Assembly: GCF_000341225.1 (NCBI RefSeq)
Contig: NZ_ANAC01000021.1
Span: forward strand, 1-64,000
DNA length: 64,000 bases
Origin: Nocardiopsis alba DSM 43377
GTDB lineage: Bacteria; Actinomycetota; Actinomycetes; Streptosporangiales; Streptosporangiaceae
Direction: 5' to 3'
Shown here: positions 1 to 19,280 of the stretch, piece after piece
Position numbering within the stretch: position 1 is the stretch's first letter
Layout: the number at the start of each line of letters is the position of its first letter
The notes under the pieces: model-generated
The model's input: only the letters and a program-made list of their open reading frames with translations
Told to the model about the DNA's origin: nothing
The model's database searches: none
Position numbers and translations under genes: made by a program

Positions 1-1647
1 CTCGCCCTGGGACTCCTCGGGCGTGGTCGCCCCTCCGGTCGGGGTGGTTCCGTTCGCCGGCACACCGGCGGCCGCTCCGGCGATCATCCCGCCGCGACGA
101 CGGCCCCAGTTCTGCGCCTTGAGGTAGGCGACGGGCGGGAGGACCGCCGCGCTCTTGCCCAAGGCCTGGCTCTGGGCGGCGTCGTTGACGATCCGCGAGG
201 TGAAGCTGTTCGCGTTGACCGAGGAGAAGAGGTAGGCGAAGGTCTTGCGGTAGATGAAGAGCGCCAGGGTGAACAGGGCCAGCAGGATCATCTGTAGCCC
301 CCACCCGATGGGTGTCGACATGACGATGCCGTAGCTCATGACCAGCAGGGCGATCAGCAGCACCACGAAGATCTGTTTGAGCAGGAAGCCCACCATCAGC
401 TCCACCCAACGCAGCAGGACCATACGCCCATAGCCCGGGTGGATCCCGATGAGCAGGAAGATCGGGGAGAGCATGAAGAGCAGCATGAAGCCGATCTTCA
501 AGACGATGAGGGCGACCGAACCCGCCAGGATCAGACCTCCTGCGAAGATGGACGCGAAGAGAGCGAGAGTGGCGACTCCGATCCGACTTCCTGAATCCTC
601 ACCAGAGAAAAGAGGATAGACACTCGGGTAGTTTTCCTGAATGTCAGAAGCAATACCCTCGTAAGCTTCTTGTTTTTCTGTGACCAAGGCTGCAGCATCA
701 ATGTCACCGTCTTCGATCTGCTGCTGCTCTATCCTGCTGATGGCTTGGGCCGCCATGAGATCTTCCGCATGCATCTCAGCAGCATTGATAGCCATATTAT
801 CGTTGCCGAATTGACCCGACATCCACGGTTGGCAGACCAGGCTCGACCACATCATGTCCGCGTTACGACGTACCTGGAAGTCGGCCTCCGACTCCCAGTC
901 CGCGCGTTCGGGTGGCTCGGCCCCGGCCGGGCAGACCCCCGACCCTCCTCCGTAGGGGACCTGTCCGACCGCGCTGGTCACCAGCTGGGTCCCCGAGTTC
1001 ACGAGGGTGCTGCCCAGCCCCATGACCTGGGCGGGGTTGATGAGGATCCACATGCCCAGCGCGGTGGCCGCGACCATCCACACGCTGGACTCGATGGTGA
1101 GCGTCATCCGCTTGCGGATGAGCCCGTACCAGCCGAGCCAGATGGCACCCAGGATGACGATGGTGGGGATCAGTGGCCGCCAGACGCCTTCTCGGAGGGC
1201 GACCACGACGTTCTCGACCGTCTCGGTGAAGCTGGCGAGCAGCCCGTCGGAGGTGGCGGCCTGGTAGACGGTGATGGTGGACTGGTTGATGGTCTTGGAC
1301 AGGTCCCAGGCGGAGTTGGCGATCGTCGCCTGGGCACCGTTGGCCATCCCGTCCACACAGGATTCGGTGATCATGTGCCATTGGGTGCCGGCCGTGCCGT
1401 ACTGGCCGTACATGCTGGCGTCGGGGGGAAGCCCGTCGGGTGAGCCCTCGATGGCGGACTGGGACTGGGGAGGCACCAGGAGCCCGTCGGAGCCGCTTCC
1501 CGCGGATTCGGGGAGGGGCGCCGGCTGCCCCGGGCACAGGGGGTTGGCGGTGGCCCCGCTCAGCGGCAGCAGGATGAAGCCGCTCAGCATCAGGAACGTC
1601 ATCAGGAGGCGTCGCCATCCCCGCCGGTGGACGTGCTGATGCGTCAT
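1..1647 (-). CDS. VirB6/TrbL-like polytopic T4SS membrane protein (TcpH-like), partial
   Basis: The frame starts at ATG 1647 and is open for 549 codons to the window edge, so the C-terminus is missing. Residues 12-33 form a cleavable-looking signal segment, followed by a Pro/Ser-rich stretch, then hydrophobic segments near residues 145-165 and 180-205, and a cluster of at least four more in residues 330-470 that includes a run of Leu/Ile/Phe around LLFMLSPIFLLIGIHPG. After residue 480 the chain becomes Gly/Ala/Pro/Thr-rich. A large multi-spanning core with a soluble tail is the layout of VirB6/TrbL/TcpH channel proteins of type IV secretion systems. The assignment is supported by the VirB4 and TcpC-D-E homologues further right, and by an upstream motif shared with those genes. 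It is the first gene seen on the minus strand and no partner gene lies within 500 bases. Family membership is from topology and context; no catalytic motif exists to confirm it. Confidence 0.7.
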   Translation of the reverse strand, partial: MTHQHVHRRGWRRLLMTFLMLSGFILLPLSGATANPLCPGQPAPLPESAGSGSDGLLVPPQSQSAIEGSPDGLPPDASMYGQYGTAGTQWHMITESCVDGMANGAQATIANSAWDLSKTINQSTITVYQAATSDGLLASFTETVENVVVALREGVWRPLIPTIVILGAIWLGWYGLIRKRMTLTIESSVWMVAATALGMWILINPAQVMGLGSTLVNSGTQLVTSAVGQVPYGGGSGVCPAGAEPPERADWESEADFQVRRNADMMWSSLVCQPWMSGQFGNDNMAINAAEMHAEDLMAAQAISRIEQQQIEDGDIDAAALVTEKQEAYEGIASDIQENYPSVYPLFSGEDSGSRIGVATLALFASIFAGGLILAGSVALIVLKIGFMLLFMLSPIFLLIGIHPGYGRMVLLRWVELMVGFLLKQIFVVLLIALLVMSYGIVMSTPIGWGLQMILLALFTLALFIYRKTFAYLFSSVNANSFTSRIVNDAAQSQALGKSAAVLPPVAYLKAQNWGRRRGGMIAGAAAGVPANGTTPTGGATTPEESQGE

Positions 1648-2211
1648 CTGCTGAGCTCCTGCGTCGTGTGTTCGTCCGGGGTGATGGCAGACCACGAGGC
1701 CTCACGCCGCACACGCCGGCACGCCTCCAGGCGCACGACCGCACGGCCACAAGGCCCCCGCATGTCTTTACCCCATCCTCTATGGTGCTCCATCACCGGG
1801 CTCGTGGATGGGTTCAACTCGATGAGATTTCCGATTCGTACCCTCACGGGGGCCAGACGCACAGGTACGAATGCGACCTTTCATGATGTTTCCCCAGGTA
1901 GAGACCTTGAAAGGACATCCGGAACTCCCAAAAACCGCGAGGCCACAATTTGCTGACCAGACGGGGACTATGAGGGGCGTCACACCACCTTTCGTAGTGA
2001 AAAGTGGACACAAGGCCACCAATCGGACTGGAACCCGGTTCCTTTCACGGCTTCCGAGACGGCCGCAGCCCTGATTGCCGCCGGCCCGAAACACGCCGCC
2101 CCGTAGGCGAAGGAGGCTTTCGCACCAGGGGGAGCCATGACCCCTCGAGCCCCGAGGGGCCGCTCCGCTCACGCCCCCGCGCAGAACGCCCCGGGGAGGC
2201 TCCCCATCGAG
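1648..2211. other. 564-base gap with VirB6 promoter region
   Basis: No convincing coding frame. The only structure seen is the shared T4SS upstream motif at 1769-1793. The part from 1870 to 2060 is noticeably lower in G+C than its surroundings. Confidence 0.5.
1769..1793 (-). promoter_or_regulatory. Shared T4SS upstream motif, copy 1 (VirB6)
   Basis: On the minus strand this reads ATGGAGCACCATAGAG followed by GATGGGGTA. It lies about 120 bases upstream of the VirB6-like start. It matches the site upstream of the TcpC-like gene (19348-19371) in 22 of about 25 positions allowing one gap, and the VirB4 upstream site (11441-11456) in its first half. It may be a promoter element (CACCAT resembles a -10 box with A2 and T6) or an activator site. 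Confidence 0.5.
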
Positions 2212-2895
2212 TCAGGGGCGGATCGGGGCCGTAGCGGCCCCGGCGACATCGGCGATCGCCCTTTCGACCCTCCTCAGCGCGACACCGCGCTCCTCGTCGG
2301 TCATCCGGACCGGCTTGTGGGTGACCACGGGGTCGAGGACCTCGTAGCCGACGAACTCGAGCATGCCTCGACGGATATGGAACAGGAAGTCGTCCATCGG
2401 GCCGAAGGCGCCGTCCGGCTCGAAGGCCTCGGCGGAGCCTCCGGTCGTGAGCAGCAGCATCGCGCGTCTTCCGGCGAGGGCGGCGTCTTCGAAGAACCCG
2501 TGTTCGCCGCCGAACACCCCGCCCATCACGAAGACCCGGTCCACCCAGCCCTTGAGGACGGCGGGCATCGAGAACCACCACATCGGGAACGACAGGACGA
2601 GCAGGTCGGCGGCGAGCAGGCGTTGGAGGTGGGCTTCGACCTCGCGGTCGAGGGTGCCCTCCCGGACCGCGCGCACCTGTTCGGCCTGCGGTTTGAAACG
2701 GTCCTCGGTGGACGCGAACTGTTCACGCCGGAGGACCGGCGCCCATCCTTCGGCGTAGAGGTCGAGCACGTCGACGTGGTATCCCGCGCCGTTCAGAGTT
2801 CGCGCCGCGGTGGCCATCTGAGCGGCACTGAAGGAGTGCGGCTCGGGGTGGGCGTGGACGATGAGGGCCGTGGGGACGCCACCGAAGGTCGACAT
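2212..2895 (-). CDS. NAD(P)H-dependent flavodoxin-fold oxidoreductase (Flavodoxin_2 family)
   Basis: 227 residues. The N-terminus ALIVHAHPEPHSFSAA is the FMN phosphate loop typical of NQO1/MdaB-type NAD(P)H:quinone oxidoreductases. The central LVLSFPMWWFSMPAVLKGW and the following DRVFVMGGVF are the conserved core of the Flavodoxin_2 family. These cytoplasmic enzymes use FAD or FMN for two-electron reduction of quinones or electrophiles; the substrate cannot be told from sequence. The gene lies 34 bases downstream of an ArsR-family regulator on the same strand and is most likely co-transcribed with and controlled by it. ATG 2895 follows a palindromic candidate operator. Confidence 0.85.
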   Translation of the reverse strand: MSTFGGVPTALIVHAHPEPHSFSAAQMATAARTLNGAGYHVDVLDLYAEGWAPVLRREQFASTEDRFKPQAEQVRAVREGTLDREVEAHLQRLLAADLLVLSFPMWWFSMPAVLKGWVDRVFVMGGVFGGEHGFFEDAALAGRRAMLLLTTGGSAEAFEPDGAFGPMDDFLFHIRRGMLEFVGYEVLDPVVTHKPVRMTDEERGVALRRVERAIADVAGAATAPIRP

Positions 2896-5642: not shown

Positions 5643-5939
5643 CCCCGGACGGTTCCGACCCGCTCGGCGACCTCTCCGGCACCCTGAGGGCACCGGCGTT
5701 CCACGAGCTCGTGAACGCCGTCTCCGAGCGCCCGAAACACCGGTACGGAGGTCTGACCACTATCGGTCACCTGCGGTAAAGCCCCGAGGCAGGGCGACCT
5801 CCCCCGGTTTACAGTGGTGTTCCGGTTCCGACCGATCCACGAAACGGCGGTCCCCTCTCCCGCGCGTGGTGGTGCGCGTTCACTCCCGCGAAGGCAGTCC
5901 CGCGCGCCGGCCCGCACCGCCAGAAGGGAGGCCGTTCGG
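5643..5939. other. Intergenic region upstream of Ser/Thr kinase
   Basis: No gene. A possible -10 box TACAGT occurs at about 5810, but no matching -35 was seen. Confidence 0.3.
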
Positions 5940-7670
5940 ATGCCCCCGCCCGAACACACGACGGTCGGCCGCTACGAGCTTCGTGAACGGCTGGGCGTAG
6001 GCGGAATGGGCACGGTGTGGCGTGCCTGGGACCCCGCCCTCCAACGGGACGTCGCGGTCAAGGAGGTCCTGCTCCCCGACGGCATGAGCGAGGAGGACCG
6101 GATCGAGGCGCACGCCCGCACCATGCGCGAGGCCCGGGCGACCGCCCGGATCAGCCATACCGCGGTGGTCACCGTCCACGACGTGCTCGAGCACGAGTCG
6201 AGCCCGTGGATCGTGATGGAGCTGCTCAGCGGTTCCTCCTCGCAACAGCACATCGACGCCCACGGGACGATGCGGGTGGAACGGGTCGAGAAGGCTGCGC
6301 GGGCGTTGTTGGGCGGTCTGCACGCCGCCCACGCCGCGGGCGTGACGCACCGTGACGTCAAACCCGCCAACATCATGTTCACCGAGGACGAGCGGACGGT
6401 GCTGACCGACTTCGGCATCGCCAACGTCGACGGGAGCGCCGCGCTCACGCAGACCGGGGTGTACATCGGTTCGCCCGAGTACATGGCCCCGGAACGGTTC
6501 GAGGGGGAACGGGCCCTGCCGGCCTCGGACCTGTGGAGCCTGGGCGTGACGCTGTACTCGCTGTTGGAGGGGCGTTCCCCCTTCAAACGGGACAGCATCA
6601 CGGGCATGATCAGCGCGGTGTTGACGTCGCCGGTGCCACCTCGTCTGTCCCGGAACGAGGCGGCGGGGTCCCCTCGGAGCGCGGCCCTGCGGGCGCTGAT
6701 CGAGGCTCTGTTGACCCGGGATGCGGCGGCCCGGCCCACCCCGTCGGCCGCTCTGGAGCTGTTGGATCGCGTACGTCCGGAGACCCTGGAGAACGTGCCG
6801 ATCCGTAGGGGCGCGCCGCCGGGTGGTGCGCCCTACGGTGGCGTGACGGCCCGGGGCACGGGGCCGCGCGGGGTTCCGGTGCCGCGTCCCCCGGCGGGCG
6901 GGGTTCCGACACGGCACGTCCCGCTTCCTGGCACGCCGCCTAGAGGCGTCCCGGTGGAGGGGGTCCCCGAGCCGCGCCGCCCCGTCTCCGGCACTCCCCC
7001 GGGCGGGGTCCCCGCGGGAGGGAGACCGATGTCCCCGCCACGTCCCGCCCCTCCGCCCGCCGGGGCGGTGACACCCGGCCGAGGTACGCCCGTTCCCGGT
7101 GGAAGCGGTCGGCCTTCCGGAGCCCCCGGCCCCGCACCCCGTCGTCCCACTCCCCCGGCGGGGACCCCCGTACCGCGCCCCTCCCCTCCGGGGGCCTCTC
7201 CCGGTGGTGTTCCTGTCGAAGGGCCCGCGTCGAAGGTCGTGAGTATGCCGACGGAGGCCGCCCGGGGGTTCCTCGACGGTGTCGGTTACAGCGTCTCCCC
7301 TTCCGAGGGTCGGTCGAAGGGGGAGAGATCGGCCTCCTCGCTCGCCGTCACGGTGATGTGGGGGATCAACGCCGTGGCGTTCTCGGTCCTCGCCGTCCTG
7401 GGTCCCTCGCTCGGTGCCGGAACCGGATGGGCCGGTGCCGTGCTCGCGGCCTCGGCCGGACTGTCGTCGGCCGGTGCCGCGATCGGGCCGGCCGTTCGCC
7501 ACCGGGCCGCGTTCCCGGTGGGGCTGCTCGCTCTGCTCCTGAGCGGCGCGGCTCTGGGATGGGGCGTGTTCACCGGGGAGGGCGCCGGTCCCCTGGTGGC
7601 GCACGCGCTCTTGACGGCGCACGCCCTGGCCGCCTGCGGGCTCCTGTTCGTCTCGCGGGGGCCGCGCTAG
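5940..7670 (+). CDS. Ser/Thr protein kinase with Pro/Gly-rich linker and four-helix membrane tail
   Basis: 576 residues from ATG 5940, which has GGGAGG nine bases upstream. Kinase domain at residues 10-270: glycine loop GVGGMGTVW, catalytic Lys in VAVKEVL, HRDVKPANIMF, DFG, and activation-segment end GSPEYMAPE, so all catalytic residues are present. Residues 290-455 are a low-complexity linker with repeated GVP/TPPGG units. The last 110 residues contain about four hydrophobic helices and end two residues after SRGP. There is no extracellular sensor domain, unlike PknB or the kinase at 47247. It lies on the strand opposite to the T4SS genes around it, so a role in controlling the machine is conceivable but unsupported. 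Confidence 0.9.
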   Translation: MPPPEHTTVGRYELRERLGVGGMGTVWRAWDPALQRDVAVKEVLLPDGMSEEDRIEAHARTMREARATARISHTAVVTVHDVLEHESSPWIVMELLSGSSSQQHIDAHGTMRVERVEKAARALLGGLHAAHAAGVTHRDVKPANIMFTEDERTVLTDFGIANVDGSAALTQTGVYIGSPEYMAPERFEGERALPASDLWSLGVTLYSLLEGRSPFKRDSITGMISAVLTSPVPPRLSRNEAAGSPRSAALRALIEALLTRDAAARPTPSAALELLDRVRPETLENVPIRRGAPPGGAPYGGVTARGTGPRGVPVPRPPAGGVPTRHVPLPGTPPRGVPVEGVPEPRRPVSGTPPGGVPAGGRPMSPPRPAPPPAGAVTPGRGTPVPGGSGRPSGAPGPAPRRPTPPAGTPVPRPSPPGASPGGVPVEGPASKVVSMPTEAARGFLDGVGYSVSPSEGRSKGERSASSLAVTVMWGINAVAFSVLAVLGPSLGAGTGWAGAVLAASAGLSSAGAAIGPAVRHRAAFPVGLLALLLSGAALGWGVFTGEGAGPLVAHALLTAHALAACGLLFVSRGPR

Positions 7671-8937: not shown

Positions 8938-11394
8938 CTACTCCCCACGGCCGTTAGTGGACACCATCTCGGCGGGCCGCTCCCGGGTGGGGTTGGTGTC
9001 CAGCCAGCGCAGCAGAGATTCGGAGACCAGGTCGACGCCGATCCTGCCGGTGCGGCCGTCCAGGTCCCGGAAGAGGCATTCGCCGTTGCCGAGGTTGCGC
9101 AGGACCGCCATGTGGTCCTCGTTCGGTTCCACGCCGAGCAGGTCCATCACGCTGCCCACCTCGTGCGCCTCGCTGGAGCGGAAGGCGAACACCGAGGACA
9201 GACAGTTGGTGACCTGCTCGTTGAGCATGTCACCCGCGTTCTGGGAGACGAGGATGAGCGCGGTGTTGCGGGAACGGCCCATGCGGGAGACCTCGGGGAC
9301 GAGCTTGGCCCCCTCGGGCGTGGAGGTGACCGCCCAGGCCTCATCGAGGAAGATCGCCTTGGGCAGGCGACGGTCCAGACCGTTCATGAGGCGGCGGGCG
9401 AACTGGGAGACCAGGTAGAGCAGGGCCACGGACAGGCGCTGTTCGTAGGAGTAGTCGTCGCGGTCGACCCCGGAATCGGGCAGGGTGAGCCCGCCGAGGG
9501 TGAAGACGGTGGTCCATCCCTCGGTATCGATGCGTGCCTCGCCCTGGGGGTCGAAGCACAGGGAGGCCAGACGCATCTCCGCCATCGACCCGAGCACCGC
9601 GCCGAGGTTGCGCGAGGCGGCGTCGTCGGAGGCGGTGAGGTGGTCGACGACCTTGGCCAGGGAGGGCCGGGGCTGGTTGGCGACGGTGGCCACGGCCTGG
9701 ATCATCGCGGACTCGCGCTCCTCGCTCATGCGGGGCAGGAGCAGACGCAGGGTCTCGGTGGCCATGGTCTTCTTGGCCGCCAGGTCGTCGCCGAACGCGA
9801 AGGGGTCGAGCAGGCCTGGCTGGGCCGAACCCAGCGACATGACGCGCGCCTTGCGTCCCCGGTGCTTGAGCAGTTCGACGAGGGACTCGGCGTCGCCCTT
9901 GGGGTCGATGGCGGCGACGGTGACCCCGCGCAGGGCGAGCTGATAGATCATCAGCAGCGCCAGGGTCGTCTTGCCGCCACCGGGCTCACCGGTGATGGCG
10001 ATGGCGGTGGGACGGTTGCGCGCGGCGGCCACCATGGGGTCGAAGTGGACGATGGAGCGCGCCCGTCCGACGGTCTCACCGACGTAGGGGCCCACCCAGC
10101 CGCCGCCCTGCCGGTCGGTGCGGTCTCCGACCTCGACGGTGGCGGTGGGCATGCCGCCCGCGATGGTGCGCAGCGGCTGACGTTGCGCGTAGGCGTTGAG
10201 TCGGATCTTGTCTCCGGGCAGCGACTCGTTGAACAGGGAGAGCTGGTCGCCGGTGGAGTTGATGACGTCGATGCCGATGTCGCGGTAGTGCTCCATGACC
10301 GCCTCGACCTGCTGGACGAGGAGGCGTTCGGTGGGCGCGGAGACCATGAGCCGGTGCCAGCCGTAGACGAACGGCAGGCGTTCCTTGGTGATGCCGTGTT
10401 CCAGCATGCGGGCGGCGTCGATCTGCTCGGCCAGGGCGATGGGCGCCTCCACTCCGGCCTCGCGGATGTGGGCGTCCATGTCCCGCGCGTGCGCGAGTTT
10501 GCGCCCCACGTCCTTGGAGGCCTTCGCGGGCGGGATGAGCTTCATGCGCAGGGAGAGCTCGACCGGGAAGGGCAGCGCGTCGGCGTGGTGCAGCCACGGT
10601 TCCCCGTCGGGGAAGGGCATCAGGTCGGGGAATCGGGCGAAGGAGAGGAAGGAGACGTGGGTGGAGCCGGAGGGTTGTTCGAGTCTGAGCATGGAACGCC
10701 CGTTGTGGACCACCCCGTCGACGAGCGCCTCGATCTCTCCCCGCCCCCAGGTGCGGCGGCCGGCGGCCGAGGGGCGGATCTCCTCGGAGGTGCCGGTGAC
10801 GGAGTGTCGGACGAGCCAGGCGATCTCATCGGAGGTGGCGTGGCGGGCGTGCAGGGAGCTGGCGGCCAGGGCCCGGCCCAGACGTTCGGACTGGTCGGTC
10901 CAGCGGGCGAGCTCCTTGTCGTCGACCGCGTCGTCGTTGATGCCGAGGACCTGTTCGGTGCGCTGGTAGGCGCCGAAGATCTGGGAGAACAGACCGAGGC
11001 CGCCACCGGCGTTGCGCATGCCCAGCCGCACCCCGAGGTAGACCTCCTTGGTCCAGAAGTCCTTGGCCCATACGTGCCGGTACATCTCGTCGAGGTAGTC
11101 GTACCAGCCGGGTCCGGAGTCGGCGGTGGCGTCCAGTTCGGTGGCCCACTGGGCGGCCGGATAGGTGCGGTGGGCGACCCTCAGGTGCACCTCGGCGTCG
11201 TTCATCCGGATGGCGGCGAGGGCGATCGTGATGTTGGTGGCGAGCGCCTGCCGTTCCTCGGGCGTGGTGAACTCGTAGGAGACGGTGGGCAGTCGGAAGT
11301 AGGCCCAGGCCTCGGTGTCGCTGAAGAGCACACGGTCGTCGAAGTAGCGGACCGCGAGGCGGGTCGCCCCACGGGTCCCCCTGGTGCCGGTCAT
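8938..11394 (-). CDS. VirB4/TraC-family T4SS ATPase (TcpF-like)
   Basis: 818 residues from ATG 11394; the frame continues 28 codons upstream but those overlap the control region. The N-terminal half is the variable VirB4 domain (YRHVWAKDFWTKEVYLGVRL is typical). The C-terminal half is a RecA-like motor: Walker A ITGEPGGGKTTLALL near residue 500, IDPKGDAES, Walker B KAIFLDEAWAVTS near 690, and the sensor LILVSQNAGD. VirB4 proteins are hexameric cytoplasmic ATPases that energise assembly and substrate transfer of type IV secretion systems. In pCW3 the TcpF ATPase follows TcpC-D-E; here the order C-D-E then F then VirB6-like is kept on the minus strand, with two unrelated genes (ectD and HNH) inserted between E and F. 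Confidence 0.92.
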   Translation of the reverse strand: MTGTRGTRGATRLAVRYFDDRVLFSDTEAWAYFRLPTVSYEFTTPEERQALATNITIALAAIRMNDAEVHLRVAHRTYPAAQWATELDATADSGPGWYDYLDEMYRHVWAKDFWTKEVYLGVRLGMRNAGGGLGLFSQIFGAYQRTEQVLGINDDAVDDKELARWTDQSERLGRALAASSLHARHATSDEIAWLVRHSVTGTSEEIRPSAAGRRTWGRGEIEALVDGVVHNGRSMLRLEQPSGSTHVSFLSFARFPDLMPFPDGEPWLHHADALPFPVELSLRMKLIPPAKASKDVGRKLAHARDMDAHIREAGVEAPIALAEQIDAARMLEHGITKERLPFVYGWHRLMVSAPTERLLVQQVEAVMEHYRDIGIDVINSTGDQLSLFNESLPGDKIRLNAYAQRQPLRTIAGGMPTATVEVGDRTDRQGGGWVGPYVGETVGRARSIVHFDPMVAAARNRPTAIAITGEPGGGKTTLALLMIYQLALRGVTVAAIDPKGDAESLVELLKHRGRKARVMSLGSAQPGLLDPFAFGDDLAAKKTMATETLRLLLPRMSEERESAMIQAVATVANQPRPSLAKVVDHLTASDDAASRNLGAVLGSMAEMRLASLCFDPQGEARIDTEGWTTVFTLGGLTLPDSGVDRDDYSYEQRLSVALLYLVSQFARRLMNGLDRRLPKAIFLDEAWAVTSTPEGAKLVPEVSRMGRSRNTALILVSQNAGDMLNEQVTNCLSSVFAFRSSEAHEVGSVMDLLGVEPNEDHMAVLRNLGNGECLFRDLDGRTGRIGVDLVSESLLRWLDTNPTRERPAEMVSTNGRGE

Positions 11395-11440
11395 CTCGTG
11401 TCGCCTTGCCCTTCTGGTCGCGTCGCGGCTGAGCGTGCCA

Positions 11441-11456
11441 GTCCATAGTGGAGCAT
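11441..11456 (-). promoter_or_regulatory. Shared T4SS upstream motif, copy 2 (VirB4)
   Basis: Minus strand ATGCTCCACTATGGAC, 47 bases upstream of the VirB4 start. It aligns with ATGCCTCACTATAGGG upstream of the TcpC-like gene and ATGGAGCACCATAGAG upstream of the VirB6-like gene. The GATGGGGTA half is not conserved here. Confidence 0.4.
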
Positions 11457-11513
11457 GCGGCCCGAGGCGCAGAAGCAAACGGGGTTACGGCACGCCGGAA
11501 ACCCGATCGTGGT

Positions 11514-11567: not shown

Positions 11568-12227
11568 TCAGCAGGCGGTGTCGAGGGTGCCGTTCAGGGA
11601 GGACTTCTCCGTGGAGGTGATGGTGAGGTCGTAGCGGTGCTTCACGTCGATCCAGGACTTCACGTAGTCACAGTGGACGGAGGTGTTGGTCGGCATCCAC
11701 TCCGAGGGGTCCTTGTCCCCCTTGGCGCCGTTGCTGGACGGGGTGGCCAGCCACAGCTGGGAGGACTCCACGTCGTTGGCGAAGTCGGCGCGCTCGGAGG
11801 TGGACCAGTCGGCGGCCCCGGTCTTCCAGGCCTCGCTCAGCGGCACCAGGTGGTCGACGCTGATGTCGCCGGGGACGTCCTCGACCCACTCGTCGTCGAA
11901 GGCGCTCCACCAGCTTCCGGAGGTGGGCTGGCACCTGGAGTCGGTGACCACGTCGTGGCCGTCACGCTGGAGCACCACCTGTCGAGCGGTGCAGGGGCTC
12001 TCCACCACGTTCCAGTGGGGGAAGAGGCTTCGGTCGTAACCGTCCTGGGGGCCCTTGGGGGCGACGGTGAGGGAGTCCAGCTGGGTCCTGGCCTCGGACT
12101 CCGAGGGGATGTTCGGGGGCAGGGTGTGGTCGGCGGCGGCGGGGGCGGACCATCCGATGACCACGGCCATCGCGGCGGCCGAGACCGCGGCGATGCCGCG
12201 CGAGAGCGCACGGGGGAGGGTGGACAC
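11568..12227 (-). CDS. Secreted HNH nuclease (DUF1524 family)
   Basis: 219 residues from GTG 12227, selected because AGAGGAGAG lies six bases upstream; a longer ATG frame exists. A signal peptide with ALSRGIAAVSAAAMAVVIGW and cleavage after SAPAAA is clear. The mature part carries the DUF1524/HNH features: two Cys pairs around SPCTARQ and DSRCQPT, ISVDHLVPLSEAWKTGA (the metal and catalytic His), then SQLWLATPSSNGAKGDKD and DYVKSWIDVKHRYDL. These are extracellular metal-dependent nucleases, often called GmrSD-C-like or HNH family. It sits between the E and F genes of a secretion machine but has its own terminator and ribosome site, and carries a Sec-type signal, so it is probably exported by Sec rather than by the T4SS. 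Confidence 0.88.
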   Translation of the reverse strand: MSTLPRALSRGIAAVSAAAMAVVIGWSAPAAADHTLPPNIPSESEARTQLDSLTVAPKGPQDGYDRSLFPHWNVVESPCTARQVVLQRDGHDVVTDSRCQPTSGSWWSAFDDEWVEDVPGDISVDHLVPLSEAWKTGAADWSTSERADFANDVESSQLWLATPSSNGAKGDKDPSEWMPTNTSVHCDYVKSWIDVKHRYDLTITSTEKSSLNGTLDTAC

Positions 12228-12750
12228 GTTATCTCTCCTCTTGAGCGGGTCGAGGAAAAGTGGACGCACCTACTGTGCGGTAATCGAGCCCTCGACACCA
12301 GACCCCGTCAGGAGAATTCCGCGTGAAATACACGGAGCGGGTGGGACTGGAGCGCAAAACGGGAGCTCGTCGGTTTGAACCATGCAGCACACCAGATTCG
12401 TGTGAAACAGGTCACATGGAAACCGGGGACTCGGGCATCTCGGGGAGAGGGTCGACGGCGACAACCGGACGACCTGGGACGATGACCCCGGGTCAGCGGA
12501 TTCGTCACCCTGGGCGATTCGACGCAGGTAAGCCCTGGGACGGCCTCACCAACCTCACGCAAACCCGAGAACAACGGTCCTTTGATTTACGTTTTCCGCC
12601 CATATAGTATGTCAGTAATACCCCGAGGACCTTCCGGTAAACAAACGGACGTTCGAGCCTCGAATATGCCCTCCCGTCGGATTTGTTAGGTTCACCTGTC
12701 GTAGGAGAGAACCCGATTCGAGAGGAGCGACCCTCACCGAGGGGAACGGC
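12228..12750. other. 523-base divergent region between HNH and ectD
   Basis: No gene. It is lower in G+C than the flanks, especially 12570-12690. On the minus strand ACTATATGGGCGG near 12596-12608 loosely resembles the T4SS upstream motif. GGAGCGACC-type purine runs before ectD are its ribosome site region. Confidence 0.4.
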
Positions 12751-13656
12751 ATGACTCTGCAAATGGATCTTCCGACCGCGGACGAGTACCCGACCCGTAA
12801 GGCCCCGGAGCCCGCGCTGCTCTACCGTCAGGACCCCACGGTCTGGAGCGGTGACGCGACGGGCCCCTTCACCGCCGAGGAACTGAGCGACTATGGTCGC
12901 CGCGGCTACACACAGGTCGCGTCGATGGTCGACGCTCAGGAGGTCGAGCGGTACCGGGCCGAACTCAAACGCCTCAGTGACGACCGCGCGCTCCGCAAGG
13001 ACGAGCGGATCGTCGTGGAACCCACCTCCGACGAGGTCCGTTCCGTCTTCGAGGTGCACAAGATCAGCGAGGTCTTCTCCGACCTCGTCAACGATCCCCG
13101 ACTGGTCGACCGTGCCCGTCAGATCCTCGGATCCGACGTGTACGTGCACCAGAGCCGGGTGAACTACAAGCCCGGTTTCGGCGGAGGCTCGTTCTACTGG
13201 CACTCCGACTTCGAGACCTGGCACGCCGAGGACGGCATGCCGCGTATGCGCGCGGTCAGCTTCTCGGTGGCCCTGACCGACAACTACACCCACAACGGCG
13301 CTCTGATGATCATGCCGGGCTCGCACAAGACGTTCGTCTCGTGCGTCGGCGAGACTCCGGAGGACCACTACCGGTCCTCGCTCAAGAGCCAGCACGTGGG
13401 CACCCCGGACCAGGCGTCGCTGGCCCTGCTGGCCGAACGGCACGGCATCGACGTCCTCACCGGTTCGGCCGGCGACGTGACCGTCTTCGACTCCAACTGC
13501 ATGCACGGATCCGGGGGCAACATCACGCCCTTCCCGCGATCCAACGTGTTCATCGTGTACAACAGCGTGGAGAACGCCTGCGACAAACCCTTCAGCGCGA
13601 GCTCGGCTCGCCCGGGTTTCCTCGCGTCCTCCGACACCACTCCGGCCGGTCGTTAG
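12751..13656 (+). CDS. ectD: Ectoine hydroxylase
   Basis: 301 residues. EctD is a cytoplasmic Fe(II)/2-oxoglutarate dioxygenase that turns the compatible solute ectoine into 5-hydroxyectoine. The family signature around residues 134-192 is present (QSRVNYKPGFGGGSFYWHSD and ALTDNYTHNGALMIMPGSH). The iron triad is H151, D153 and H252, the last within SNCMHGSGGN. Length is normal (about 295-305). ectABC and the ectR regulator are not in this window, so ectoine must be made or imported through genes elsewhere. It sits alone on the plus strand between secretion genes, with two strong terminators downstream. Osmotic induction is expected from the family but no promoter element was identified. Confidence 0.95.
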   Translation: MTLQMDLPTADEYPTRKAPEPALLYRQDPTVWSGDATGPFTAEELSDYGRRGYTQVASMVDAQEVERYRAELKRLSDDRALRKDERIVVEPTSDEVRSVFEVHKISEVFSDLVNDPRLVDRARQILGSDVYVHQSRVNYKPGFGGGSFYWHSDFETWHAEDGMPRMRAVSFSVALTDNYTHNGALMIMPGSHKTFVSCVGETPEDHYRSSLKSQHVGTPDQASLALLAERHGIDVLTGSAGDVTVFDSNCMHGSGGNITPFPRSNVFIVYNSVENACDKPFSASSARPGFLASSDTTPAGR

Positions 13657-13883: not shown

Positions 13884-16800
13884 TCAGTGCCGGGGCGTCG
13901 AGATCAACGAGTTGACCAGGACCCCGCCCAGGGCCCCGTGGGCCCTCTTGGTCGCGGGGCGCAACGCGCCCACGTCGATCTTCGTGTACGAGGAGCCCAG
14001 GTGGTCGTCCCACGGAATGCGCACGATCGCGCGGCAGCGGCCTCGGGCCACCCGCTCGGCGGCGTCGACGTCCCGCAGGCTGCGCTTGCTCACCCCGTTG
14101 ACCACGAGCACCGAGTTGGCGCGAAGCGCGGAGTATCCGTTGCCGTCCAACCACTCGAAGGTCATGGACACGGCGCGCTCGGCGTCGGCGCTGGCCGGCG
14201 CGACCAGCACCAGGCCGTCCGCGACCGGCAGGGCCCGCGCCACACCGGTGGCGGCCGGGTCCAGCAACGTCAGACCGTAGAAACCGCCGAGCAGTTCGGC
14301 GAGCTGACCGTAGTCGCGGTCGTCCAGGGTCTGGACGTAGGGATCGTCGAGGGTCTGGACGACCTCCAGCCCGGTCACGGCGCGCCCCGCGTAGGAACGC
14401 ATCCGCTCGTACTCGTCGATCCCGTCGGCGTTGGCCAGCAGGGCCGTGAGCGTCTCCGGCGCCTGGGCCCCGACCCGTCGGGACAGTCCGTTGGGGCCCG
14501 GGTTGACGTCGACCGCGACCACCCTGTCGTCGCGGTGCGCCGCGAGGGTGTGGCCGAGCATCAGCGCGGTCACCGACTGTCCGGCGCCACCGGTGCATCC
14601 GAGGACCACCAGGGCCCGGGGTCGGTCGAGGGGTGCGCGGAGCCGTTCGATGTCGCCCTCGGGCAGGTCCGAGCGCATCGGCGCCGCGCCGCCGGTGACG
14701 ACCCTCGCCAACCGGCGCCATCCCCGGGTGGCCCCGGAGTCGCCCGCGGCCTCGGCGGCGGGTTCGGCCGGTTCGGGGTCGACCCGGCGCGCGGTGCCGC
14801 CTCCGGGGGTGTCCCCCAGGCCATCGTGTTCTCCGGTGCCGTGGTCGAGCTCCAGCTCCTGGGAGGGGGACTCCTCCCGATCGGCCGTCTCCTCGCGCGC
14901 CTCCCTCGTCTCCTGTGCGGTGCGGGGCGCGGGCGGCTCGGGCTCCTCTCCGGGCACGGTCTGTCCGAAGAGTCGGCCGATCCTGCGGGCGTTCTGGGCG
15001 ACCTTGTGGAAGACCCCGTCGTGGGGATCGTGCGGGCCGAAGGACTCCCGGTCCTCCGAGGTGTCCGAGGGGTCGGGCTCCGTGCGCCGGCCGTCCTCCT
15101 CGACGGTCTCCTTCGTGATCCCCGGTTCGGAGGCGATGGCCGGCTCGGCGGCTCCGTCGGCCCGACGGCGGGCGCGCAGGGCGGCCTCCTCGGCCTCGGC
15201 CAGTTCGTCCTCGGTCGGGCGGAGGGCGGCGGCCGCGTTCTCCTTCGAACGGAGACCTTCGACCTTTCGGGGCCTCTCGGGGGCGGGTCGTTCGACGCGC
15301 TCCCGGTTCGTTCCCTCGACCGCGGCGCTGCGCTCCGTGGAGTCGGCCGCGTCCACGGTCCCGGTCGCGCCGGCCCGGACCCGGGGTTCCGGTTCCCGTC
15401 GCACCTCCACGAAGCTGACCAGCTCACCCGTACCGTGATCCAGCTGGGTCGCGGGCTTGGCCGTCTCCTCGCCCCCCTTCGTCGGTGTCCCGGTGGAAGG
15501 GGCGGTCCGCGGTTCCACGTCCGTCCGGGGTTCGGGGTCCTTCTCCAGGACCGTCTCCGGCTCCGGGGCGGGTTCGGGCGCCTCGGTGGCGACGGCCTCG
15601 ACGGCCTCGGGGGCCGGTTCGGGCTTCGGGGCGGGGACGGGGGCGTCCGTCCTCTCCGGTCGACCGTTCTCCCCTTCGGTCCCCCGCTCTCTCGTCTCCG
15701 GTTCCGGAGCGGGCTCGGGTTTCGGCTCGGGCTCCCGTCGCACCTCCACGAAGCTGACCAGCTCACCCGTACCGTGATCCAGCTGGGTCGCGGGCTTGGT
15801 CTCCTCCTCGGGGTCCTCCGTCCGAGGCTCGTCGGCGGACGCCTCCCGCTCGCCGCTCTCCTCCCGCAGTTCCTCCGCCGGGATGACGGGGTTGTCGCGG
15901 TCTCCGACCTTCGGCTGGTCGGGGTGACGGCGCTTGCCGTCGTCGAACCACTCCGCGTCGTCGGTCGGTTCGTTCTCCCGCTCGTGCGCGGGAACGACGT
16001 CGGCGAACTTGGGGCGGGGCGGCGCCGGGGTGTCGGCCTGGATCAGGTGGCGATCGAGCACGGACATGTGCTCGTCCCACTCGGAGTCGTGTCCGGTCCG
16101 CCCCTCACCCTCCGGTTCCCGTCCCGTTCCGCTCCTGTCGGCGGTCTCGGTCCGGGCCTCGCCGAGGCCGTCGGTGGCGTGCGAGGCCTGCGGTCCGGCC
16201 GCGGTCCGGCCGATCCGTCCGGCTTCCGCGGGGGTAGGCTCCTCCCGCTCCGGGGTGGTGGACGCCGGTGGAAGCCATGGAGCCGGGGAGACGTCGCGGG
16301 CCGCTGAGGGCCTGCCCGTGGCCTCGGCGTAGCGCGCGGCGTAGTCGGACAGGTCGGGGTAGCCGCCCGCTTCGGAAGAGGGGTCGCTCGACGCGCCCTC
16401 CCGATCGGCGCCGTCCGGGTCGAGGGACCAGGGGGCGGCGTGCGGCCGCCCCTTCGGCCCGGCGGGCCCGTCCACGGGGTCGGTGTCCTCGGTGGCGGGC
16501 AGGGCCGTACCCCGCGCGCGTATCGGGGGTTCGGCGGGACGGACCCGTTCGCGGACCGGTTCCCGTTCGACCGTGTCGGCCACCCGTGTGTCGTCGGTGA
16601 CGTCGACCGGACCGGTCTCGCGCTCCCGGCGGTCGGCCAGGTCCTTGGCGACCCGGATGCCCTGGGCGCGTCCGCGCAGACGACGGGCGGCGGTCGACTC
16701 CGAACGACTCTCGGTCGGCTCGGGCGCGGCCATGATCTCTTCGGCGCGACGCCGATCCTCGGAACGCTCGGCGGCCGATCGGACCGCCGAGGCGAGTTCA

Positions 16801-17870
16801 TCGGTGCTCATGGCGCCGGTGTCGGATTCGGCGTAGGCGCTCTTGGAGGACAGACCGATCGGTGTCTCACCGGAGGAGGCGCGCAGTCGGGCGAGCCACT
16901 CGTCGCGGTCGCGTCGTTCGTCCTCCTCGGTGGCGTGGACGGGCTCGTCGAAGACATCTCCCTCGATGTTCGAGCCCTCCCCACCGACACGATCCCGAGC
17001 GTCGTCCTCGGGTTTCTCCCGGGCCTCGCCGTCACCACCGCCACCGGTGTTCAGGGCGAAGCCGAAGTAGTTGAGTACGCGGCGGCCGACCCCGGGACGG
17101 GCGCCGTCGTCGCTTTCGCGGGCCTCTACGGCGGCCATCGCGACGTGGGTGTCCCCGAGGCCCTCCGTGGTCTCCCGCGTACCCTCAGTGTCCTCCTTGG
17201 CCGGCGCTCCGGCGGTGACCGGAACCCGCGTGTCGGGGGCCTCGACCGTCTTCTCCGGTTCGGTGAGCCGGTCGCCGGGGTCGGGGAGCGGCTCGACCTC
17301 CCTCGCGGCGGGCTCGGGGGCGGCCACCCCGCGCAGCGGCGGCGCCGCCTCCCCGACGGCGCGCGGATCGCGTTCGACCTCGCTCGGGGCGGTGGATTCG
17401 ATGGAGGCCTCTTCGGAGACCTCGATCTCCTCCGTCTCGGCGGCCTCTTGGTCGCGGCGTGCGCCCCGGGGCAGGGGAAGCGGCCCGGCGGCGGGGTCGC
17501 GGTGCCACACACGCACCGCCACACGCACCTCCGAGGGCTCGTACTCCGGGGCGAGCCTGGTGTACACGCGCGCCTCGGTGAGGAAACGCGCCTGTGAGAT
17601 GAGCAGCTCCGTGAGGCGCTTGCCCTCGATCACCGGCCGGGTCGCCAGCACGGTGATCACCCCCGGTGGCACGACCCACAGCACCAGGTGCCAGCCGTTG
17701 CCGAACTCGAAGGGGGCGTTGACGATGCTCAGCAGCACCACCCAGAGCGCGAAGACCCCCAGCGCGACACCGAAGGTGCCGACCGGGAGCGGCATGGGCA
17801 GCCGGAAATCGTAGAGCTTGTAGAGCCTCTTCTCGATACGCCAGATGTTGGTGTACGTGGGCAGATCCAC
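13884..17870 (-). CDS. TcpE-like membrane domain fused to MinD/ParA-like domain by long acidic linker
   Basis: 1328 residues. Residues 1-130 match the TcpE family: YTNIWRIEKRLYKLYDFRLP, two hydrophobic segments (about 27-50 and 58-82) and LTELLISQARFLTEARVYTR. Residues 145-1080 are disordered, rich in Glu, Pro, Arg and Ala, with the motif LDHGTGE three times and a perfect 67-bp DNA repeat. Residues 1085-1328 resemble MinD/ParA ATPases: VVLGCTGGAGQSVTALMLGH, VVAVDVNPGPNGLSRR, a TLLDPA box and VLVVNGVSKRSL. The signature Lys of Walker A (GK[ST]) is Gln and the first Lys of the deviant motif is missing, so ATP hydrolysis is doubtful. TcpE is a small inner-membrane T4SS subunit in pCW3. It is the third gene of the C-D-E operon. 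A scaffold or substrate-capture role for the tail is an inference. Confidence 0.8.
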   Translation of the reverse strand: MDLPTYTNIWRIEKRLYKLYDFRLPMPLPVGTFGVALGVFALWVVLLSIVNAPFEFGNGWHLVLWVVPPGVITVLATRPVIEGKRLTELLISQARFLTEARVYTRLAPEYEPSEVRVAVRVWHRDPAAGPLPLPRGARRDQEAAETEEIEVSEEASIESTAPSEVERDPRAVGEAAPPLRGVAAPEPAAREVEPLPDPGDRLTEPEKTVEAPDTRVPVTAGAPAKEDTEGTRETTEGLGDTHVAMAAVEARESDDGARPGVGRRVLNYFGFALNTGGGGDGEAREKPEDDARDRVGGEGSNIEGDVFDEPVHATEEDERRDRDEWLARLRASSGETPIGLSSKSAYAESDTGAMSTDELASAVRSAAERSEDRRRAEEIMAAPEPTESRSESTAARRLRGRAQGIRVAKDLADRRERETGPVDVTDDTRVADTVEREPVRERVRPAEPPIRARGTALPATEDTDPVDGPAGPKGRPHAAPWSLDPDGADREGASSDPSSEAGGYPDLSDYAARYAEATGRPSAARDVSPAPWLPPASTTPEREEPTPAEAGRIGRTAAGPQASHATDGLGEARTETADRSGTGREPEGEGRTGHDSEWDEHMSVLDRHLIQADTPAPPRPKFADVVPAHERENEPTDDAEWFDDGKRRHPDQPKVGDRDNPVIPAEELREESGEREASADEPRTEDPEEETKPATQLDHGTGELVSFVEVRREPEPKPEPAPEPETRERGTEGENGRPERTDAPVPAPKPEPAPEAVEAVATEAPEPAPEPETVLEKDPEPRTDVEPRTAPSTGTPTKGGEETAKPATQLDHGTGELVSFVEVRREPEPRVRAGATGTVDAADSTERSAAVEGTNRERVERPAPERPRKVEGLRSKENAAAALRPTEDELAEAEEAALRARRRADGAAEPAIASEPGITKETVEEDGRRTEPDPSDTSEDRESFGPHDPHDGVFHKVAQNARRIGRLFGQTVPGEEPEPPAPRTAQETREAREETADREESPSQELELDHGTGEHDGLGDTPGGGTARRVDPEPAEPAAEAAGDSGATRGWRRLARVVTGGAAPMRSDLPEGDIERLRAPLDRPRALVVLGCTGGAGQSVTALMLGHTLAAHRDDRVVAVDVNPGPNGLSRRVGAQAPETLTALLANADGIDEYERMRSYAGRAVTGLEVVQTLDDPYVQTLDDRDYGQLAELLGGFYGLTLLDPAATGVARALPVADGLVLVAPASADAERAVSMTFEWLDGNGYSALRANSVLVVNGVSKRSLRDVDAAERVARGRCRAIVRIPWDDHLGSSYTKIDVGALRPATKRAHGALGGVLVNSLISTPRH
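15394..15460. repeat. 67-bp perfect direct repeat, copy A
   Basis: Identical to 15733-15799, 339 bases away (113 codons, in frame). It encodes the linker peptide that includes TQLDHGTGELVSFVEVRRE in the TcpE fusion. Perfect identity at wobble positions implies recent duplication or gene conversion. Confidence 0.95.
15733..15799. repeat. 67-bp perfect direct repeat, copy B
   Basis: Second copy of the repeat at 15394-15460, in the same reading frame of the TcpE-fusion linker. Confidence 0.95.
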
Positions 17871-17889: not shown

Positions 17890-18219
17890 CTATTCCGTCG
17901 GTACGCCCATCGCTCGGGCGAGCGCCACCGCGATGACCTCGATGATGCCGGGGACGTAGAAGACGATCCCGATGAAGATCGCCAGGATCAGGAACTGCGC
18001 GAACCGTGTGATCTCCCTGGTGAACAGGAAGAAGATCGCGACGATGGACACGATGACGAGGAAGAGCGGCCCGAAGAAGCCTCGCAGGAAGTCCGCGAGT
18101 CCACCGGTGTCGGGGGCGTTCTCCGTCGTTCCCGGGGTGGCGTCGGCCGCCAGGTGGAGGAGGTCCGTGCCACCGATGGCCGTCATGGCGTCGGCGGTCG
18201 AGGACAACAGGGGGAGCAT
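17890..18219 (-). CDS. Small T4SS membrane protein (TcpD-like)
   Basis: 109 residues from ATG 18219 with GGAGGG upstream. Two hydrophobic stretches at about 47-66 (GFFGPLFLVIVSIVAIFFLF) and 72-100 are separated by TREITRFAQF. This two-helix architecture, the length, and its place between TcpC-like and TcpE-like genes fit the TcpD family of pCW3-type conjugation systems; a VirB2/VirB3-like role has been proposed for such small subunits. It starts 72 bases after the TcpC stop and ends 19 bases before the TcpE-fusion start, so the three form one operon. Confidence 0.65.
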   Translation of the reverse strand: MLPLLSSTADAMTAIGGTDLLHLAADATPGTTENAPDTGGLADFLRGFFGPLFLVIVSIVAIFFLFTREITRFAQFLILAIFIGIVFYVPGIIEVIAVALARAMGVPTE

Positions 18220-18291: not shown

Positions 18292-19257
18292 TCACCCGCC
18301 GAACGAGTGCGGGGCTCCCTGGATGTCACGCACGTACCACTCACTGCCCGAGTCGACGACCGTGACCAGGTAGTTCTGCACCATCTGTCCCGTGTTCCCG
18401 CCGTCTCCGGCCGTGTCGCCGGAGGGGAGGGACCAGACCACGGTGGCGGCCACCTGTCGTACGTCATCATCCCCGGTCGAGGACTGGGATGGCACCGCGA
18501 TATCGGACAGTTCGTGAAATTCCAGGGTGTCCGCCGGAAGTGGGGTGATCGAGACCCCCGGTTCCACGTAGCGGTCCAGGTGTCCGGCCTCCTCCGCGTA
18601 GACCTCGAAGAAGCCCGAGAGGGTGTCCCTCAACTGTTCGGCGGCCTGGGAGTCGGTGTCGTAGGAGACGCCCTCCGGCAGGCTCGCCTGCGCCGGGGCG
18701 GCGAGCAGCGCGGGAGGACCGGAGAGCACCAGGGCGTCGCCATCGCTGTAGACGGGCACCTGGAGGCTCATGGGTTCGCCGTTGACGTCGGCTCGGACCA
18801 CGACGAGGGCGTTGTGGTCGTCGAGGACGTCGACGGCGACGACGGTGAGGTTCTCCCCGGTGAGACCGTCGGCCGGCACGTTGAGGGAGCCGACCTCGCC
18901 CTCGGGCACGAAGGAGACCAGCGCCGACTGCCGGGCCTCGAGGTCGGAGGTGTCGAGGTAGGTGTCGGCGAAACGCAGCGCGAACGCGGCCGCGGGGGCT
19001 TCGGGGAACGCGGGGGCCTCGGTCGTCTCGGTGTCGGCGGACGAGGAGGAGGGGAGGGAGAAACCGTTGCGGATGGGGAACCAGATGCCGTTGAAGATGA
19101 CGACGATGATGAACGCCCAGAGGAGGACGCGCCCCACGCCGACCCACCAGCGTCCGCCCGCGCCCGCCTTGGGCCTGCGGGGACGCGGAGCGTCGAGATC
19201 GTGGTCGTCGTCGGCCCGGTCACGCACCGCGGTGTCGCGCCGCGACGTCTTGACCAT
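18292..19257 (-). CDS. TcpC-like (VirB8-like) T4SS bitopic membrane protein
   Basis: 321 residues from ATG 19257, chosen because AGGAGG lies five bases upstream; the frame is open five codons further. A charged N-terminus with many Arg/Asp precedes one membrane helix at about 45-65 (VGRVLLWAFIIVVIFNGIWF). The extracellular part (80-321) has two similar halves typical of TcpC's two NTF2-like domains: AAFALRFADTYLDTSD starts the first, and AEQLRDTLSGFFEVYAEE the second; it ends with SEWYVRDIQGAPHSFG. TcpC is a VirB8-like assembly factor essential for conjugation in pCW3. It heads the C-D-E operon, downstream of the shared motif and a leader hairpin. Confidence 0.82.
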   Translation of the reverse strand: MVKTSRRDTAVRDRADDDHDLDAPRPRRPKAGAGGRWWVGVGRVLLWAFIIVVIFNGIWFPIRNGFSLPSSSSADTETTEAPAFPEAPAAAFALRFADTYLDTSDLEARQSALVSFVPEGEVGSLNVPADGLTGENLTVVAVDVLDDHNALVVVRADVNGEPMSLQVPVYSDGDALVLSGPPALLAAPAQASLPEGVSYDTDSQAAEQLRDTLSGFFEVYAEEAGHLDRYVEPGVSITPLPADTLEFHELSDIAVPSQSSTGDDDVRQVAATVVWSLPSGDTAGDGGNTGQMVQNYLVTVVDSGSEWYVRDIQGAPHSFGG

Positions 19258-19280
19258 CCCCGCCTCCTGCACATAGTGAC

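Follow-up and report, generated by a model that had tools for sequence, protein, structure and literature searches.

A TcpE/VirB3 subunit fused to a lysine-less ParA-like domain in a chromosomal type IV secretion locus of Nocardiopsis alba and its relatives

A TcpE fusion gene in Nocardiopsis alba

We analyzed a 64,000-nucleotide stretch of DNA from Nocardiopsis alba DSM 43377 (contig NZ_ANAC01000021.1, positions 1 to 64,000; hereafter the window), in which one long minus-strand gene encodes TcpE, taken as the VirB3 subunit of Gram-positive type IV secretion systems (T4SSs), joined through a disordered linker to a C-terminal domain of the ParA/Soj/MinD fold whose Walker A lysines are both replaced. 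The gene and its parts, with the evidence for each, are:

13884..17870 (-): TcpE(VirB3)::disordered linker::pseudo-ParA fusion gene, 1328 amino acids (aa); open frame, GC content at third codon positions (GC3), TcpE Pfam match of 80.4 bits, fusion kept in relatives
17481..17870 (-): TcpE/VirB3 domain, residues 1-130; hydrophobic segments near residues 26-57 and 62-81
14646..17480 (-): disordered acidic linker, residues 131-1075; composition
13887..14645 (-): pseudo-ParA/MinD domain, residues 1076-1328; AlphaFold model and fold match
14574..14600 (-): altered P-loop GCTGGAGQS in place of KGGVGKT, residues 1091-1099; glutamine for the P-loop lysine in 99/99 rows

The frame starts with GTG and runs uninterrupted over 1328 codons, with a GC3 of 0.85-0.93 along its full length, linker included, which matches the real genes of this DNA. 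Its N-terminus matches PF12648 (TcpE) over residues 5-105 (curated cut-off 29.9 bits), the starting residues MDLPTYTNIW are conserved across 18 aligned relatives, and the two hydrophobic segments in the hydropathy profile are compatible with two transmembrane helices. At 1328 aa, the protein departs in size from the 10-15 kDa, two-helix form expected of TcpE/VirB3. Comparison of TcpE with solved structures gave no usable match. The linker of about 945 residues carries a net charge of -95, consists to 84% of the residues DEKRPGSTAQ, and is disordered by composition.

Distribution and integrity of the fusion

A strong relative of the C-terminal domain was found in 198 of 201 sampled genomes of the order Streptosporangiales; the exceptions, G038-G040, all belong to one other family and gave paralogue-level matches only. 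All 37 Nocardiopsis genomes searched contain TcpE, as a rule within a long open frame; most of the shorter frames are second copies or are cut by a contig end. In a class-wide sample, TcpE was confined to this order. Among 80 named loci (from Nocardiopsis, Streptomonospora, Thermobifida, Marinactinospora, Actinomadura, Actinoallomurus, Spirillospora, and others), both ends of the protein were present in 69, and TcpE and the C-terminal domain shared one frame in 65 of these. The fused form is thus fixed in the chromosomes of nearly the whole order of soil actinobacteria, and a local oddity of one genome was rejected as an explanation since the same architecture occurs order-wide.

A sequencing or gene-calling artefact, in which a missed stop or frameshift joins two genes, was also considered. 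A linker this rich in GC is difficult to sequence, and four of the 69 loci are split, but the single frame in 65/69 loci from independent projects and the coding-like GC3 throughout the linker refute this explanation, to which we assign a negligible probability. The four split genes (L101, L117, L121, and L142), one of which comes from a genome listed as complete, show apparent frameshifts; these may be genuine breaks or errors of sequencing.

Linker length ranges from 384 to 1737 aa among 79 relatives, and several short motifs recur within it, located in the window as follows:

17052..17069 (-): YFGFAL, residues 268-273; in 29/79 linkers, 0 expected from shuffles
16428..16445 (-): PHAAPW, residues 476-481; in 39/79 linkers, 0 expected from shuffles
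15762..15782 (-): LDHGTGE copy 1, residues 697-703; in 47/79 linkers, usually three copies, 0 expected
15423..15443 (-): LDHGTGE copy 2, residues 810-816
14829..14849 (-): LDHGTGE copy 3, residues 1008-1014
14982..15002 (-): VAQNARR, residues 957-963; in 27/79 linkers, 0 expected
14706..14723 (-): GWRRLA, just ahead of the C-terminal domain, residues 1050-1055

These five motifs recur on the Nocardiopsis side of the tree, in the same order where compared. A GWRR[LIF]A or GLRRL stretch lies shortly N-terminal of the domain in 73/79 linkers, and a GWRRLV/GWRQW-like stretch also precedes the ParA domain in some unfused relatives. The fusion is not a product of chance, because its architecture recurs across the order and the linker motifs recur while shuffled versions of the 79 linkers yield essentially no copies of them. 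The TcpE domain and the acidic disordered linker proposed in a first-pass annotation of this DNA both stand, LDHGTGE begins at residues 697, 810, and 1008 and GCTGGAGQS spans 1091-1099 as it had located them, and the stop or frameshift in independent reads that it had named as the threat to the fusion is absent from 65/69 loci of independent genomes.

An altered P-loop in a ParA/MinD fold

On its own, the C-terminus matches the CbiA/ParA profile weakly (E 7e-5, under the curated cut-off). Modeled with AlphaFold on a 71-row alignment, which superseded an earlier run on 21 close relatives (predicted local distance difference test, pLDDT, 64), the domain reached a pLDDT of 91.4 and a predicted template-modeling score of 0.90. 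The top structure match of this model was Soj (2bek; Z 24.5, root-mean-square deviation 2.5 over 227 aa), followed by MinD (Z 23.1), FleN, McdA, and the TadZ structure 3fkq (Z 19.1), which we take to be that of E. rectale TadZ.

In this fold, both Walker A lysines are replaced, the signature lysine by T1093 and the P-loop lysine by Q1098, so the deviant Walker A pattern KGGxGK[ST] with its two lysines is missing. Across 99 orthologous rows (some organisms are present in both collections from which these were drawn), the loop consensus is given as GC[TS]G[GS]AGQ[ST] in 99/99; glutamine stands in for the P-loop lysine in all 99, and threonine for the signature lysine in 98, the remaining row having serine. 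The remaining loop codons differ at silent positions among these rows, and the loop is the best-conserved stretch of the domain, whereas the nearest paralogues outside the fusion carry KGGVGKT in 18/18 cases. Judging from these alignments, the altered P-loop is conserved, not decayed. The fused domains form a single clade (support 100/100) apart from the canonical SCO5717-type paralogues. Neither a single-protein oddity nor a decaying domain was retained as an explanation; instead, the component is ancestral, chromosomal, and strictly conserved through nearly the whole order. The most divergent member is a much shortened fusion of 528 aa in genome G140 (L214:253-1839, minus strand), and it still carries GCTAGAGQT.

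From the sequence we infer that nucleotide binding has been lost in the pseudo-ParA domain. An unlikely alternative is that the loop is altered but functional, binding a nucleotide in an unusual way through Q1098 and T1093 with D1121 and D1204 kept, and that the domain works as a true switch that may respond to ATP or a different nucleotide, in the way EspI does for the type VII secretion system ESX-1. The conservation of the loop fits such a switch, as do D1121 and D1204, the acidic residues of the nucleotide site, which are invariant in fusions and paralogues alike. Further, McdA has lost its signature lysine and is nevertheless an unusually active ATPase (PMC6328274), and EspI, a peripheral ESX-1 protein of Mycobacterium tuberculosis that combines a P-loop domain with an extended disordered region, reduces secretion at low ATP (PMC11302016). 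However, McdA retains its P-loop lysine (GGQGKT in its sequence), which is lost here in 99/99 rows, and Lys425 of EspI is described as essential for ATP binding (PMC11302016). In addition, G1206 and T1207, near the second acidic residue, are both changed to alanine relative to the paralogues.

The type IV secretion operon

The fusion gene belongs to an operon with the conserved order TcpC, a TcpD-like protein, TcpE::pseudo-ParA, VirB4 (TcpF-like), VirB6 (CD3337/EF1877 type), a 210-aa VirB8-like protein, and a hydrolase with SLT and NlpC/P60 domains. Its other members in the window are:

18292..19272 (-): TcpC (VirB8-type), 326 aa; PF12642 at 36.7 bits, cut-off 27
17890..18219 (-): small TcpD-like membrane protein, 109 aa; conserved immediately upstream of the fusion in almost all loci compared, weak LptF/LptG match only
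8938..11478 (-): VirB4/TcpF ATPase, 846 aa; AAA_10 at 227 bits and TcpF at 244 bits, intact Walker A GEPGGGKT, true start probably slightly inside this annotated frame
94..1653 (-): VirB6/TrbL (CD3337/EF1877 type); tblastn identity of 66-68% to relatives, Pfam and NCBIfam matches of a relative

The VirB6 frame overruns the contig start, and the genes for the VirB8-like protein and the hydrolase lie at the end of contig C20. Homologues of VirB1, VirB3, VirB4, VirB6, and VirB8 therefore occur together, the combination by which a T4SS of the MPF-FA type is recognized. VirB4 lies downstream of the fusion in 80/80 named loci with the domain, with other genes intervening in the window: among those between the operon genes are a protein with a GmrSD_C domain (11568-12269, minus strand), a PhyH dioxygenase (12751-13656, plus strand), a Ser/Thr kinase (5814-7670, plus strand), and a flavodoxin-fold protein (2212-2895, minus strand). 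Unlike in the window, the same operon is compact in other genera. In Nocardiopsidaceae, the NlpC/P60 gene is followed by one whose product, a conserved protein of roughly 250 aa anchored in the membrane, starts with GLHGWRAF and has no Pfam match (L199:15491-16264, minus strand).

The VirB4 tree broadly tracks taxonomy, and the T4SS locus therefore looks vertically inherited and old; a recent integrative and conjugative element was rejected on the same grounds. The housekeeping gene ychF lies in the operon neighborhood of locus L060 and, farther away, also in the window. With the TcpE/VirB3 proteins of MPF-FA conjugation systems (TcpE of pCW3, ConC of ICEBs1, and OrfE of ICESt3; names per PMC12857230), the fusion shares the Pfam family, the operon slot before VirB4, and the partners TcpC, VirB4/TcpF, VirB6, and a VirB1-type hydrolase. 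In contrast, those are small membrane proteins encoded in mobile elements, whereas the fusion adds about 1200 residues ending in a pseudo-ParA and is encoded in a core chromosomal locus.

Two further proposals of the first-pass annotation are borne out here. A membrane-anchored part of a secretion machine agrees with a TcpE domain encoded within a T4SS operon, and a ParA/MinD fold without the Walker A lysine agrees with the model (pLDDT 91, Soj as best match at Z 24.5), profile and fold searches having returned this fold and not the different one that would have spoken against it. Our analysis adds three points: neither of the two lysines is retained, the loop that took the place of the motif is itself conserved, and the window also encodes the VirB4 and VirB6 of this machine.

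Coupling proteins and relaxases

The locus does not look like an ordinary conjugation system. Within the operon, no coupling protein is conserved. Across the 16 near-complete genomes with the system, PF02534 (VirD4-type) was found in nine and gave no match in seven, including the single-contig genomes G105, G103, G068, and G092, although divergent coupling proteins may escape these profiles; PF12696 was found in 21/41 genomes of the family. The MobF relaxase was without match in 11/18 genomes, the window's among them (MobF was the relaxase family searched), and it has been proposed that T4SSs lacking a relaxase serve mostly in protein export (PMC3158045). The window's genome and G074 do contain a VirD4-like gene, some 10 kb downstream of the operon, after which the proposition that this T4SS never has a VirD4 was dropped.

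These patterns bear on an unlikely explanation of the tail, namely that it is the substrate receptor of a T4SS without a dedicated VirD4, the pseudo-ParA binding cargo and passing it to VirB4. The operon without a conserved coupling protein and the incomplete occurrence of PF02534 and PF12696 speak for it, as does VirC1 of Agrobacterium, a ParA-family protein that recruits a T4SS substrate at the pole (PMC10241942). Against it, the downstream VirD4-like genes mean that the tail cannot always replace VirD4, and divergent coupling proteins may have escaped the profiles.

Plasmid copies of the machine

The same machine is encoded on two Nocardiopsis plasmids (NZ_CP099838 and NZ_CP074136) with an unfused TcpE (169 and 158 aa). 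On both, a separate gene for a MinD/ParA protein, whose KGGVGKT motif is intact, immediately follows the TcpD-like gene and lies ahead of VirB6. Like the fusion, this is a ParA-type protein in the same type of T4SS operon; unlike it, the gene stands alone, its Walker A motif is intact, and the accompanying TcpE is unfused. In the VirB4 tree, the plasmid proteins are nested with the Nocardiopsis chromosomal copies (support 95), which suggests that the plasmid machine arose from its chromosomal counterpart.

On the N. exhalans plasmid there are, in addition, genes for a MobF relaxase, a coupling protein, and a further ParA annotated for partition. This plasmid is probably conjugative because the relaxase and coupling protein accompany a nearly full T4SS, and a purely plasmid-partition role of the T4SS-linked ParA is less likely because the other ParA is present. 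PLSDB types the two plasmids (L216 and L217) as non-mobilizable, yet each has a nearly full T4SS.

The tail-less plasmid TcpE, together with the loss of both catalytic lysines, could also mean that the chromosomal tail is a structural leftover, an ancient fused ParA that lost its activity and is kept for folding or assembly of the machine only. We regard this as very unlikely, as a dead loop should vary and this one is near-invariant across the order, and as on the plasmids the loss of the tail goes along with a different ParA gene in the operon.

ParA-type helpers of secretion machines

The nearest canonical relatives of the C-terminal domain are actinobacterial MinD-like proteins of the SCO5717 family (30-38% identity), many of which have a long N-terminal stretch ahead of the ParA domain, like the fusion, but which carry KGGVGKT (18/18), have no TcpE, and form a separate clade. 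One of these canonical paralogues adjoins the type VII (ESX) gene EccE in another genome, and EspI is a probable relative. Because a different ParA stands in the operon when the tail is lost and a paralogue lies beside EccE, we read these observations as evidence that the MinD/ParA branch of the SCO5717 type, together with the plasmid ParA, serves secretion machines. In another actinobacterial family, a 763-aa protein (L085:9833-12124, minus strand) joins a KGGVGKT-bearing MinD/ParA to a daptide-type HExxH metalloprotease domain, its nearest relative in the tree being L080.

T4SSs, TcpE, and ParA-type helpers are already known. TadZ/CpaE of Tad pili is a ParA fold in an envelope machine, implicated in positioning (PMC11300603) as is proposed here for the fusion, but it is soluble, serves another machine, and has an extra N-terminal domain and no TcpE-like membrane domain. 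The fusion does not belong with it, as its N-terminus is TcpE and its locus a T4SS, and only the ParA fold is common to both. VirC1 likewise is a ParA/MinD-like protein serving a T4SS, but it is a separate protein, described as an ATPase, outside the membrane core. No description of a VirB3 subunit that carries a conserved, lysine-less ParA, in a chromosomal core machine present in nearly an entire order, turned up in the open-license literature searched.

A proposed role for the tail

With moderate confidence, we read the fusion as the VirB3 of a chromosomally fixed, vertically inherited Gram-positive T4SS, its tail being a pseudo-ParA docking or landmark module. The chief competitors of this reading are the unusual nucleotide switch and the receptor in place of VirD4. 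TcpE is taken as VirB3, adjoining and co-evolving with VirB4, and VirB3 proteins are bound 1:1 to VirB4 (review, PMC12857230), so that each machine would bear several tails around its cytoplasmic base. Without its Walker A lysines, the ParA fold would no longer cycle with ATP and could act as a constant docking or landmark module. Its partner may be a substrate, a second protein of the MinD/ParA family, or a landmark of the nucleoid or envelope. Binding of that partner would either bring cargo to the VirB4 channel or hold the machine at a site, with linker length setting the reach and the linker motifs possibly offering further docking sites. TadZ offers a precedent for positioning a machine, and VirC1 one for recruiting cargo. 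That the tail positions the machine or recruits substrates, as the first-pass annotation had suggested, is our best inference, and it is helped by the plasmid machine, which has an unfused TcpE and encodes a separate, Walker-intact ParA.

Several observations weigh against the docking or landmark module. The acidic residues D1121 and D1204 remain invariant, and the loss of nucleotide binding is argued from residue replacements. The plasmid ParA falls in the canonical paralogue group and not with the fused domain; it is therefore a substitute drawn from the superfamily and encoded by a different gene, and the two plasmids probably represent one event. Finally, the frame is broken in places: four of the 69 loci are split by frameshift-like breaks, and a few genomes have a stop inside it.

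Conclusions

A broader picture, which we offer only tentatively and think rather less than probable, is that of a non-conjugative housekeeping T4SS in nearly the whole order of these filamentous actinobacteria, in which a nucleotide-blind ParA receptor tethered to VirB3 selects or positions cargo, while the plasmid form returns this role to a separate, ATP-competent ParA. The finding points to a T4SS that is fixed in the chromosome, and apparently undescribed, in almost all sampled genomes of the order that includes Nocardiopsis, Thermobifida, and Actinomadura. Its fused, lysine-less ParA and the separate, Walker-intact one of the plasmids form a natural comparison for asking whether a secretion machine can make use of a ParA fold that does not cycle with ATP.

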